Assembly (NCBI GenBank): GCA_946611605.1
Contig: CAMODU010000003.1
Span: 1 to 51,438 of the forward strand
Origin: an uncultured bacterium
GTDB taxonomy: Bacteria; Bacillota_I; Bacilli_A; RF39; UBA660
Reading direction: 5' to 3'
Length of the DNA: 51,438 nt
Part shown: positions 33,819 through 47,839 of the stretch, piece by piece
Layout of the letters: each line of letters opens with the position of its first letter
How positions within the stretch are numbered: the stretch's first letter is position 1
Translations under genes and position numbers: made by a program
The notes under the pieces: model-generated
What the model was told of the DNA's origin: nothing
What the model saw: only the letters and a program-made list of their open reading frames with translations
The model's database searches: none

Positions 33819-34352
33819 TTATTCTGATACTTTAACCATGGCAGGTCTAAGTAACTTATCTTTATAAATATATCCTTTTTGTAATACTTCTAATACCATA
33901 TTACTATTTACACCATCTTGCTTTTCAGTAGCAACAGCTTGGTGTATAGCTGGATCAAATTCTACATCTTTTTGATCAATTACTTTAACTTGTTTATTAT
34001 CTAATACTTCAACAAGTTTCTTATATATCATTTTAAAACCATCTAAGAATACTTTATTATCTTCATTTTCCATAGATAAAGCTCTTTCAAAGTTATCTAT
34101 TATAGGTAATAAAGATTTAATTAACTCCTCACCTTCATATTTTAATAGCTTTTGAATATCTTCTTCTCTATGTCTTTGAATGTTTTGAAGTTCAGCATTT
34201 AATCTAAGAACTTTTTCTTGTTCGTTAGCAATAGCTTCTTCTAATAATTTATTCTTTTCTTCTAATAGTTTTTCTTTCTTATTTTCTTTTTTATGATGTT
34301 TTTCTTCCTTAACAACTTCTTGTTGTTCTTCTTGTTTTACTTTTTCTTCCAT
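33819..34352 (-). CDS. grpE: Nucleotide exchange factor GrpE
   Basis: 177 aa. A charged disordered head, a long coiled-coil helix ([34 protein letters not shown]) and the beta-wing with FDPAIHQAV and [25 protein letters not shown] are diagnostic. It drives ADP release from DnaK. Between hrcA (9 bases) and dnaK (17 bases); AGGTGA upstream of ATG 34352. Confidence 0.97.
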
Positions 34353-34361
34353 TTACTTCAC

Positions 34362-35372
34362 CTATTTATCTAAATATTGTTTAAGGAAATTTAATAAACT
34401 AACAACTTTATCATATTCCATTCTTTTAGGGCCTATGATTGCTAAAGTTCCTTCTTCATTTCCTACATGATAATGAGTCTTGATAATAGTTACATCTTTA
34501 TCAAATTCTGTTTCATCACCAATATAAACATTAATACCATCATCATCAGTTCTAATCTTTTGAACTAATTCATTATTTTCTAATTTAGATACCATTTCTT
34601 TTATCTTATTTGTATCATCATATTCTTTATAATCTAACAAATTAGTTTTACCTTTAAATACCACATCTGCATTGTCTACAGCAAAATCTCTAAATGCTGA
34701 TGAGAAGAAATTACATACTTCTTCATATCTATTAATAACTTCTTTAATCATTGGTTTAATATCTAACTCTAATCTTTCATTTACTTTATCAATTGGAGTT
34801 CCTATTAAAGCTTTATTAATGATTTCTGATGCTTGTATTAATTCTTTAAGATCTATATCCTCTTCTACATTTACTTGTTTATTTTCTACATCACCTTGAT
34901 TAGTTACAAGTACAGCAACAACTTTTTTATAACCATTTTCATTAGGACTTGAATCTAATGGAATAATACTTATTTGTTTTAATGTCGCATTCTTAGATGA
35001 ATCACCTATAACAACAGATGTATAATGAGTAATATCACTTATTATTTCCATACACTTATTAATAGCATCAGATACAACTAAACTATTATTATTTAATATA
35101 GTTTGTAGTTTTAATACTTCTTCACCATTCATTTCTTTAGGCTTCATTAAATTATCTACATAGTATTTATAACCCATCTCAGAAGGTATTCTACCACTTG
35201 ATGTATGTTCTTTTTCTATATAACCAAGTTTCTCTAATTCAGCCATATCATTACGTATAGTTGCACTTGATACACCAAACTTATCCATTAAGGATTTAGA
35301 ACTAACTGGTTTAAAATTAGATATGTAATTTTCAACTATGTCTTTTAATATCTCAGTTTGTCTAGAATTCAT
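34362..35372 (-). CDS. hrcA: Heat-inducible transcription repressor HrcA
   Basis: 336 aa. N-terminal winged helix (about 1-75: LKDIVENYISNFKPVSSKSLMDKFGVSSATIRNDMAELEKLGYIEKEHTSSGRIP) and the HrcA dimer/regulatory domain ending in LAIIGPKRMEYDKVVSLLNFL. It represses chaperone genes by binding CIRCE until GroEL becomes limiting. ATG 35372 is used, with GGGAG 7 bases upstream; the frame extends to GTG 35390 inside the CIRCE arm. First gene of the operon, with two CIRCE-like elements over its promoter. Confidence 0.97.
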   Translation of the reverse strand: MNSRQTEILKDIVENYISNFKPVSSKSLMDKFGVSSATIRNDMAELEKLGYIEKEHTSSGRIPSEMGYKYYVDNLMKPKEMNGEEVLKLQTILNNNSLVVSDAINKCMEIISDITHYTSVVIGDSSKNATLKQISIIPLDSSPNENGYKKVVAVLVTNQGDVENKQVNVEEDIDLKELIQASEIINKALIGTPIDKVNERLELDIKPMIKEVINRYEEVCNFFSSAFRDFAVDNADVVFKGKTNLLDYKEYDDTNKIKEMVSKLENNELVQKIRTDDDGINVYIGDETEFDKDVTIIKTHYHVGNEEGTLAIIGPKRMEYDKVVSLLNFLKQYLDK

Positions 35373-35383
35373 ATCATCACTCC

Positions 35384-35410
35384 CTGGCACTCCTTTTCCA
35401 TCAGTGCTAA
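35384..35410 (-). promoter_or_regulatory. CIRCE element 1 (HrcA operator), hrcA leader
   Basis: Minus strand TTAGCACTG, 9 bases, GAGTGCCAG. Against TTAGCACTC-N9-GAGTGCTAA the arms match 8/9 and 7/9. It lies between the -10 box and the start codon. Confidence 0.85.
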
Positions 35411-35414
35411 TAAT

Positions 35415-35443
35415 AATATAAAACTAAAATTAGCACTTGTCAA
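35415..35443 (-). promoter_or_regulatory. Promoter of the hrcA-grpE-dnaK-pepF-dnaJ operon
   Basis: Minus strand perfect TTGACA (35438-35443), 17-base spacer, TATATT (35415-35420). The -35 is inside CIRCE element 2 and CIRCE element 1 lies just downstream of the -10. Confidence 0.85.
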
Positions 35444-35456
35444 TAGGTATTGCTAA
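35430..35456 (-). promoter_or_regulatory. CIRCE element 2 (HrcA operator), upstream of hrcA
   Basis: Plus strand TTAGCACTT, 9 bases, TATTGCTAA; arms match the consensus 8/9 and 7/9. It covers the -35 box of the hrcA promoter. Confidence 0.75.
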
Positions 35457-45586: not shown

Positions 45587-45679
45587 GCAGCAGTACTCAA
45601 GTGGTCGAAGAGGGATCCCTGCTAAGGATTTAGGCGGGCGAATGTTCGCGCGGAGGTTCAAATCCTCTCTGCTGCGCCA
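45587..45679 (+). tRNA. tRNA-Ser (anticodon GCT)
   Basis: 93 nt with encoded CCA. Acceptor stem GCAGCAG/CTGCTGC, discriminator G as usual for serine. The anticodon stem GATCC/GGATT carries loop CTGCTAA, anticodon GCT, reading AGC/AGU. The long variable arm (class II) and T loop TTCAAAT are present. Confidence 0.96.
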
Positions 45680-45688
45680 TTTAAAAAT

Positions 45689-45716
45689 AAAAGAAGATGA
45701 TTATTCATCTTCTTTT
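45689..45716. terminator. Bidirectional terminator between tRNA-Ser and the Cys-rich gene
   Basis: AAAAGAAGATGA (45689-45700) and TCATCTTCTTTT (45705-45716) form a 12-bp stem with loop TTAT, followed by TTTC on the plus strand and TATTTTTAA on the minus strand. The Cys-rich gene's stop lies in the loop. Confidence 0.85.
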
Positions 45717-45895
45717 TCATTTTCATTACAATTACAATTTTCACATGTACAAGTTTCTTCATCACAAGTACATTCTTTACCTTCTTCACAACCACATTGG
45801 CATGTTTCTTCAGTACATGTACACTCTTTACCTTCTTGGCATCCACATGTACAATCTTCTTTGCAATTACACTTCTTCTTAACTTCTTCTTGCAT
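45701..45895 (-). CDS. Metallothionein-like 64-aa Cys-rich protein
   Basis: 64 aa with 16 cysteines (25%), no aromatic residue and no His. All cysteines lie in CxC or CxCxC clusters: 9/11, 15/17/19, 25/27, 32/34/36, 42/44, 49/51, 54/56. Residues 15-31 and 32-48 are a 17-residue tandem repeat of the form C(T/Q)CGC(Q/E)EGKECTC(T/D)EET. It is highly acidic (Glu/Asp), cytosolic, with no signal peptide. Composition fits a metal-thiolate protein. ATG 45895 has AGGAGG 5 bases upstream, only 9 bases after htpG, so it shares htpG's CIRCE-controlled promoter. Similarity to a known metallothionein family is not claimed; function is inferred from composition. Confidence 0.72.
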   Translation of the reverse strand: MQEEVKKKCNCKEDCTCGCQEGKECTCTEETCQCGCEEGKECTCDEETCTCENCNCNENEKEDE

Positions 45896-45904
45896 ATTAG
45901 CCTC

Positions 45905-47773
45905 CTATTTACTTAATTCTTCACATATTAAATTAGTAATTTCAGTTGGATTATCTATAGGTAATCCTTCAATTAATCTTGCTTGTGCATATAATACTTT
46001 AGATATATTTATTATATCATCTTTCTTTTTATCTTTCTCTAATTTGATTAATTTATCTGCTATTGGATGATTCTTATTAATCTCAAGAACCTTCTTAGCA
46101 TTTAATGTTTCATCAGTAGGCATTGCATTGATGATTTTTTCCATTTCAATAGTTACATCACCAGTTGATGATAAACTAACAGGATGTTTAGATAATTTAT
46201 TAGTAAATTTAACATCAGATAAATCTGTTATTGATGTTTTAATTACATCTAATAATTTCTTATTATCTTCATTAAACTTCTTTAATTCATCTTTTTCTTC
46301 ATCAGTAGAAAGGTCAGTTTCTTCTTTTTGAATATTAATTAATTCTTTACCATCGTATTTTTGTAATACTTGCATTACAAATTCATCTAAATAATTATCA
46401 CAGTAAAGTATTTCAATATCTTTATCTTTATAATTATCTACTACAGGTAAATTATCAATCTTATCTATAGATTCACCACATACATAATAAATTTTATCTT
46501 TACTTCTTTCACTTATTTCTTTTAAAGTTACTAACTTCTTATCTTTAGATGATGTGAATAATAATAAATCCTTTAATTTATCTTTATCCATACCAAAGTT
46601 GTTATAACATCCGAATTTAATATTCATACCAAATTCTTTAAAGAATTCTTCATACTTTTCTCTATTATCATTTAATAAAGATTCTAATTCTTTAGTAATC
46701 TTAGTATCTAATGATTTAGCTATAGTTTGTAATACATTATCTTGTTGTAGAGTTTCTCTTGATATATTTAATGATAAATCTTCAGAGTCTACTATACCTT
46801 TAATAAATGAATAATAATCAGGAACTAATTCCTTACATTTATCCATAATTAATACACCATTAGAATATAATTGTAATCCCTTTTCATATTCTTTAGTATA
46901 GTAATCATATGGAGCTTTAGATGGAATAAATATTAATGATCTATAATTAACTTTACCTTCTACATTAGATTTAATATGCATGATAGGTTCATTATAATCA
47001 ACAAACTTATCCATATAATATGAATTATATTCAGAATCATCTACATTAGTTTTCTTCCATATAGGAACCATACTATTTAATGTTTCTTCTACTACTTTAT
47101 CTTCATATTCATCTTTAGTTCCTTGTTTAGGTACACTCTTGTTAATATCCATCTTAATAGGATATGTAATATAATCAGAATATTTCTTTATTAATTCTTG
47201 TATCTTATGTGTATGTAAGTATTCAGAATATTTAACATCTTCTGTATCTTCTTTTAAAGTAATAATAATATCAGTTCCAACTGTATCTTTATTAGTTTCA
47301 TTAATAGTATAACCATCTATACCAGATGATTCCCATACATATGCATCTTTTTCACCATATCCTTTAGATATAACTTTAATATTAGATGCTACCATGAAAG
47401 CTGAATAAAAACCTACACCAAATTTACCAATTATATCTATATCTTCTTTATGTTCATTTTCAGCTTTAAATACTTCAGATCCTGATTTAGCTATAGTACC
47501 TAAATTGTTTTCTAATTCATCTTTAGTCATACCTATACCATTATCAGATATAGTTATTGTTTTATTATCTTCATCTACATATATTTTAATAAATAAATCT
47601 TCTTTATTAACTTTAATCTTTCTATCAGTTAAAGAATTATAATATAACTTATCTAATGCATCAGATGAGTTACTTATTAATTCTCTTAAGAATATATCTT
47701 TATTTGTATATATAGAATTAATCATTAAGTCCATTAGTTTTTTAGACTCAGTTTTAAATTGCTTTTTAGCCAT
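45905..47773 (-). CDS. htpG: Chaperone HtpG (Hsp90)
   Basis: 622 aa. The GHKL ATPase motifs are intact: LRELISNSSDALDK, DNGIGMTKDEL, GTIAKSG, IGKFGVGFYSAF. Middle-domain landmarks (GIVDSEDLSLNISRETLQQD) and the C-terminal dimer domain are present. Hsp90 holds and remodels client proteins after stress. Behind it follows the 64-aa Cys-rich gene. Promoter and CIRCE lie immediately upstream, so in this organism htpG appears under HrcA control, unlike Bacillus subtilis where htpG is class III and lacks CIRCE. Confidence 0.97.
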   Translation of the reverse strand: MAKKQFKTESKKLMDLMINSIYTNKDIFLRELISNSSDALDKLYYNSLTDRKIKVNKEDLFIKIYVDEDNKTITISDNGIGMTKDELENNLGTIAKSGSEVFKAENEHKEDIDIIGKFGVGFYSAFMVASNIKVISKGYGEKDAYVWESSGIDGYTINETNKDTVGTDIIITLKEDTEDVKYSEYLHTHKIQELIKKYSDYITYPIKMDINKSVPKQGTKDEYEDKVVEETLNSMVPIWKKTNVDDSEYNSYYMDKFVDYNEPIMHIKSNVEGKVNYRSLIFIPSKAPYDYYTKEYEKGLQLYSNGVLIMDKCKELVPDYYSFIKGIVDSEDLSLNISRETLQQDNVLQTIAKSLDTKITKELESLLNDNREKYEEFFKEFGMNIKFGCYNNFGMDKDKLKDLLLFTSSKDKKLVTLKEISERSKDKIYYVCGESIDKIDNLPVVDNYKDKDIEILYCDNYLDEFVMQVLQKYDGKELINIQKEETDLSTDEEKDELKKFNEDNKKLLDVIKTSITDLSDVKFTNKLSKHPVSLSSTGDVTIEMEKIINAMPTDETLNAKKVLEINKNHPIADKLIKLEKDKKKDDIINISKVLYAQARLIEGLPIDNPTEITNLICEELSK

Positions 47774-47796: not shown

Positions 47797-47825
47797 GTTA
47801 TAGCACTTATAATTAGCACTGTCAA
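47797..47825 (-). promoter_or_regulatory. Promoter of htpG-Cys-rich operon
   Basis: Minus strand perfect TTGACA (47820-47825), 17-base spacer, TATAAC (47797-47802), 23 bases before ATG 47773. The -35 is embedded in the CIRCE element. Confidence 0.85.
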
Positions 47826-47839
47826 TATATAAGTGCTAA
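47813..47839 (-). promoter_or_regulatory. CIRCE element upstream of htpG
   Basis: Plus strand TTAGCACTG, 9 bases, AAGTGCTAA; each arm matches the consensus at 8 of 9 positions. An extra half-site TAGCACTT (47801-47808) lies over the -10 region. Confidence 0.9.

Follow-up and report, generated by a model that had tools for sequence, protein, structure and literature searches.

The window analysed here (the whole stretch of 51,438 nucleotides, which is contig 3 of an approximately 1.0-Mb genome that is 93% complete) contains, on its reverse strand, the gene for the chaperone Hsp90 and, directly behind it, a small gene for a Cys-rich protein. The former, htpG (45905..47773(-)), encodes 622 aa, scores 627 bits against NCBIfam PRK05218.1 and matches Pfam HSP90; the latter (45701..45895(-)), identified by reading the open reading frames (ORFs), encodes a metallothionein-like protein of 64 aa with 16 Cys, for which homologues were found. 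Upstream of htpG a promoter, TTGACA-17-TATAAC, can be read in the sequence (47797..47825(-)), and it is overlapped by a CIRCE element, the operator of HrcA, with two mismatches (47813..47839). Judged by the presence of CIRCE at a unit's promoter, the htpG unit thus belongs to the HrcA/CIRCE regulon. The same window contains an hrcA-grpE-dnaK-pepF-like-dnaJ operon, within which hrcA (34362..35390(-)), on the strength of its position and its homology to the hrcA of relatives' grpE operons, presumably encodes the CIRCE repressor, and within which grpE (33819..34352(-); PF01025, 151 bits) specifies an N-terminal tail that, unlike the tails of many relatives, lacks Cys. CIRCE-like sites lie upstream of this operon as well (one at 35430..35456), and in all the window contains three such sites, as compared with 0.02 expected.

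The 64-aa protein is 25% Cys, arranged, as the original prediction had it, in seven CxC/CxCxC clusters, and contains no Phe, Trp, Tyr or His. In other words, it has the composition by which metallothioneins are recognized, namely, small size, a Cys content of about 20% or more, the presence of CxC motifs and a scarcity or absence of aromatic residues. The 17-residue tandem repeat that had likewise been predicted is real: CTCGCQEGKECTCTEET and CQCGCEEGKECTCDEET are identical at 14 of 17 residues and at 40 of 51 bases. The gene follows htpG, as had been noted, after a gap of only 9 bp and has its own strong AGGAGG ribosome-binding site (45901..45906(-)), which overlaps the TAG stop codon of htpG. 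The two genes share one frame and are parted by this single TAG (TAG GAG GCT AAT ATG; 45896-45907), so that a fusion would result if one stop were lost. (At two loci in other genomes, L030 and L117, the corresponding stop is missing, and an upstream gene--ArsR at the latter and, presumably, DeoC-like at the former--runs into the Cys-rich sequence, with the Shine-Dalgarno sequence and ATG kept.) A terminator-like hairpin followed by T-rich sequence (45689..45716(-)) overlaps the Cys-rich ORF at its 3' end; a tRNA gene (45587-45676) lies beyond it on the opposite strand, convergent with the Cys-rich gene, and the two genes could share the hairpin that separates them.

Because the gap is so short and a terminator-like site occurs only after the Cys-rich ORF, this arrangement of sequence signals makes co-transcription with htpG likely. 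No internal promoter stands out ahead of the ORF (the region has 37 promoter-like sites, as compared with 44.7 expected), though weak ones are possible; this agrees with the earlier claim that the CIRCE-controlled htpG promoter is the only one to be seen. The accompanying claim, that the gene falls under the CIRCE/HrcA heat-shock system, is supported by the CIRCE element and is strengthened by the GrpE fusions in CIRCE-led operons described below.

A module shared among uncultured gut bacteria

Relatives of the Cys-rich ORF define a compact module with the sharp consensus KKCxC-x3-C-x-CGC-x2-GKECTC, whose hosts are uncultured bacteria of gut and rumen, and which is absent from curated libraries. 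A profile built from 12 relatives (A1), when searched against one-genome-per-species data, matched 70 loci, mostly within metagenome-assembled genomes (MAGs) from ruminant and other guts and spanning several phyla: the hosts are Bacilli, Clostridia, Alphaproteobacteria (several of them labelled Rickettsiales), Verrucomicrobia/Akkermansia, Bacteroidales and Gastranaerophilales. At E ≤ 1e-4 the matching genomes number 25 of the 385 in the window's order; a second profile (A2), searched against a phylum-wide sample, matched 2 of 392, each belonging to the window's family. The module loci contain 706 ORFs that are 100 aa or longer; 32 of these are CxC-rich, and all 32 bear the module. Standalone copies range from about 33 to 136 aa. 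A phage or plasmid origin was considered and rejected, since searches of phage records, of PLSDB plasmids and of IMG/VR gave no match.

Conservation among these relatives extends to 11-12 invariant positions, non-Cys residues among them, and 19-aa cores that are identical across Bacilli, Akkermansia and Cryptobacteroides (Bacteroidales) differ synonymously at 12-14 of their 19 codons. Hence selection appears to act on the protein sequence of the module, including its spacers, and the ORF behind htpG is not a chance reading frame.

Within the window's genus the module occurs in 10 of 11 genomes (none was detected in G009) and in several different contexts. Three genomes (G001, G002 and G008) have it on GrpE, and their GrpEs group together on the GrpE tree; G002 has, in addition to the tail, a copy linked to a CsoR-type gene, while G001 and G008 have the tail only. 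Seven genomes have a separate or ArsR-joined module gene, and none of these has a GrpE-borne copy. This distribution, which comprises few independent events, is suggestive of a one-to-one swap between GrpE tail and standalone gene.

Gene order behind htpG

Among the 33 htpG loci that were read, the window's included, the module lies immediately behind htpG in the window only. In two congeners it lies one or two genes further on: in G005 htpG is followed by a transglutaminase-like gene (a DUF553 match close to the family's cut-off) and then by the module; in G007 it is followed by a gene for a 3656-aa protein (L328:1516-12486), the transglutaminase-like gene and the module. G004 may match the G007 arrangement, which in this genome is split by a contig end. 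In G001, G002 and G003 the transglutaminase-like gene accompanies htpG, but the module is missing from that place. Thus the pairing of htpG with the module is a local arrangement, and a conserved htpG-metallothionein operon, which the original prediction had envisaged, is ruled out as a general rule by these 33 loci. One of the grounds on which that prediction was, by its own account, to be refuted was that homologues should not adjoin htpG elsewhere, and most of them indeed sit elsewhere.

The module on GrpE

The connection with chaperones nonetheless extends beyond the htpG pair, inasmuch as the module forms the N-terminal tail of GrpE in both Bacilli and Clostridia, the latter branching separately on the GrpE tree. 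A set of 141 distinct GrpEs was compared, almost all of them drawn from a sample of the window's order plus its genus: the N-terminal tail contains at least four Cys in 43 and at least six in 24, with a maximum of 25; Cys makes up 6.3% of tail residues versus 0.57% of core residues. In many of these tails CxC motifs abound while the exact core motif is missing, so that shared descent with the module is not implied for all of them. The state of the tail changes 16-24 times on the GrpE tree, a rough count, as the resolution of this tree is poor, with 56 of its 151 inner branches open. A few tails are rich in His instead, such as one with 24 His in 82 residues. (Such tails, which are possible alternative metal-binding tails, occur within the same order at L175 of G012, with 24 His, and at L171 of G038, with 18 His plus 5 Cys.)

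Twelve loci encoding a module-tailed GrpE (two of which represent the same contig twice) were scanned for CIRCE. Upstream of hrcA a CIRCE with 1-4 mismatches was found in all of them except L023, where the contig ends inside hrcA; by chance about 0.2 such sites would be expected per 51 kb.

Fusions and metal-related neighbours

The module has also been joined to the C-terminus of histidyl-tRNA synthetase, to an FKBP-type isomerase that carries a His/Cys tail (by our reading SlyD-like), and to peroxiredoxin, ferredoxin, MIP channel, YlbF-like and SIMPL proteins. A CxC module is inserted inside what we take to be a methylmalonyl-CoA-mutase-like protein of a Prevotellaceae MAG (L087:5062-7059) and inside a presumably RNase E/G-like protein of an alphaproteobacterial MAG (L072:5401-7944). 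(The synthetase tail consists of one to several module copies in several Bacilli MAGs, at L040, L058, L066 and L068.) In the congener G003 an ArsR-type repressor continues without interruption into the module, where a Shine-Dalgarno sequence and an ATG persist in frame; the upstream gene at L030 does the same.

The commonest neighbour of standalone copies is a CsoR-family repressor (PF02583), which adjoins the module at 10 loci in Bacillota, alphaproteobacterial and Gastranaerophilales MAGs, and which, like any other metal-sensor gene, was not seen at the window's own locus. The one such neighbour tested, that of G002, finds its best alignments among Cu-CsoR structures and retains Tyr, Cys-His-Cys and Glu where these are described for Cu(I) sensors (PMC4235346). 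The same source cautions that the metal cannot be predicted from the Cys/His pattern by itself, and in the alphaproteobacterial neighbours the Tyr is absent. Cation-efflux genes adjoin the module at two loci. Together with the FKBP-type His/Cys tail, these neighbours and the CsoR- and ArsR-type repressors support the metallothionein-like character originally attributed to the protein.

Relation to known families and systems

The protein reaches the cut-off of no Pfam or NCBIfam family and has no related chain that could be found in the PDB; on these grounds membership in a known metallothionein family was rejected. Its score against Metallothio_5 (PF02067) is 13.9 bits (E = 0.06), below the gathering cut-off of 25 bits, and 17 of 32 standalone relatives match that family at E ≤ 1 (the best at 5.7e-4), a weak similarity in Cys spacing that carries no evidence of common descent. 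Neither the window protein nor 31 relatives match a curated bacterial metallothionein model of the SmtA/BmtA type in Pfam or NCBIfam at E ≤ 1, and the 64-aa protein has no Pfam match to the Hsp33 chaperone domain. A metallothionein devoid of metal would not be expected to adopt a predictable fold.

By size, Cys content and gene context, it may be likened to the mycobacterial copper metallothionein MymT, a very small Cys-rich protein controlled by the CsoR paralogue RicR (PMC10470581), inasmuch as a CsoR-family repressor adjoins the gene in 10 relatives; the window copy, however, adjoins htpG and CIRCE instead. The small, Cys-rich SmtA/BmtA proteins of cyanobacteria and Pseudomonas offer a second parallel, since smtA is controlled by SmtB (PMC7387436) and an ArsR-family repressor is joined to the module in one congener (G003); yet the window protein differs in matching no bacterial metallothionein model, in lacking His, in its all-CxC repeat architecture and in its modular fusions. 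The HrcA/CIRCE regulon of Bacillota is recognizable in that CIRCE overlaps the htpG promoter and also precedes those hrcA-grpE-dnaK operons in which GrpE is fused to the module; the difference is the Cys-rich, metallothionein-like member or GrpE tail. Nothing describing such a member, a metallothionein with GrpE or HtpG, or a GrpE with a Cys-rich N-terminus was found in the open-access literature searched, the coverage of which is incomplete. Thus the kind of protein is known, and what is new is the consensus, the modular spread and the attachment to heat-shock genes.

Interpretation

The explanation favoured here, with a probability of roughly 0.6, is that the Cys-rich ORF, placed last in an htpG unit under CIRCE/HrcA control, encodes a soft-metal, metallothionein-like buffer, which is made under folding stress and whose module has repeatedly been re-housed. 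Such a protein would hold soft metals through clusters of thiolates, with Cu(I) and/or Zn(II) as the best guesses. Protein-folding stress (heat, for example) would derepress the HrcA-controlled genes and, because the Cys-rich ORF would be the last gene of such a unit, would cause this protein to be made; the cell might then benefit from the buffering of thiophilic metal that either causes misfolding or is freed by it. The same module would have been re-housed as standalone genes (often by a CsoR-type repressor), as N-terminal tails of GrpE and as additions to other proteins. The biological logic of pairing a metal buffer with chaperones comes from anaerobically grown E. coli, in which copper toxicity is largely protein aggregation, dnaK, dnaJ and htpG are induced, and DnaKJE protects (PMC9040851). 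With this result fits the argument, made testable by the GrpE attachment and the htpG position, that in anaerobes soft-metal and folding stress are handled by one regulon. Counting against the favoured explanation are that no family cut-off is reached, that the window locus has no metal sensor and that the htpG linkage, at 1 of 33 loci, may be incidental.

On this last point, the protein could be a metallothionein-like buffer whose position lacks meaning, a small, mobile module gene having landed behind htpG (or an intervening gene having been lost) so that its heat control is functionless. This is rather unlikely, though it accords with direct adjacency in the window genome only, with the genes that intervene in G005 and G007, with the several contexts within the genus and with metal repressors, not heat-shock genes, being the commonest neighbours of standalone copies elsewhere. 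The independent attachment to GrpE within CIRCE-led operons of Bacilli and Clostridia argues, however, that the heat-shock tie is more than one accident, and in at least three congeners the module stays within an htpG-led block.

A different role for the same thiols is improbable: rather than buffering metal, they might scavenge oxidants or switch on oxidation, as zinc-redox chaperones do. CxC motifs can form disulfides, the module is fused to peroxiredoxin and ferredoxin, and the CsoR family includes the persulfide sensor CstR (PMC4235346, PMC5016687). Yet in Bacilli the repressor neighbours have Cu-type residues, CDF transporters occur among the neighbours, His-rich tails replace Cys-rich ones both on GrpE and on an FKBP protein, and the hosts, being represented by gut and rumen MAGs, are presumably anaerobes. 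Metallothioneins can also donate zinc, and the position beside the folding machinery would suit a zinc or copper store or donor for neighbours (supplying, for example, zinc to DnaJ) in place of a detoxifying buffer; this is very improbable, the fusion partners (histidyl-tRNA synthetase, aquaporin, SIMPL, mutase) being too varied for one metal client and no transfer partner having been identified.

The favoured explanation, a stress-induced soft-metal buffer, admits an extension that is offered tentatively, as conceivable but doubtful. Metal buffering may have been built repeatedly into the Hsp70/Hsp90 machinery of small-genome gut bacteria, as GrpE tails and as the htpG-unit gene. Chaperones under HrcA control would then capture thiophilic metal where clients misfold, or the metal state would tune GrpE-driven DnaK cycling.

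Apart from these forms, alphaproteobacterial versions of the module (L067, L080, L083, L088, L089 and L091) have apparent membrane anchors and conserved synteny, their neighbours being genes that we take to be sugar-kinase-like and chromate-transporter-like.
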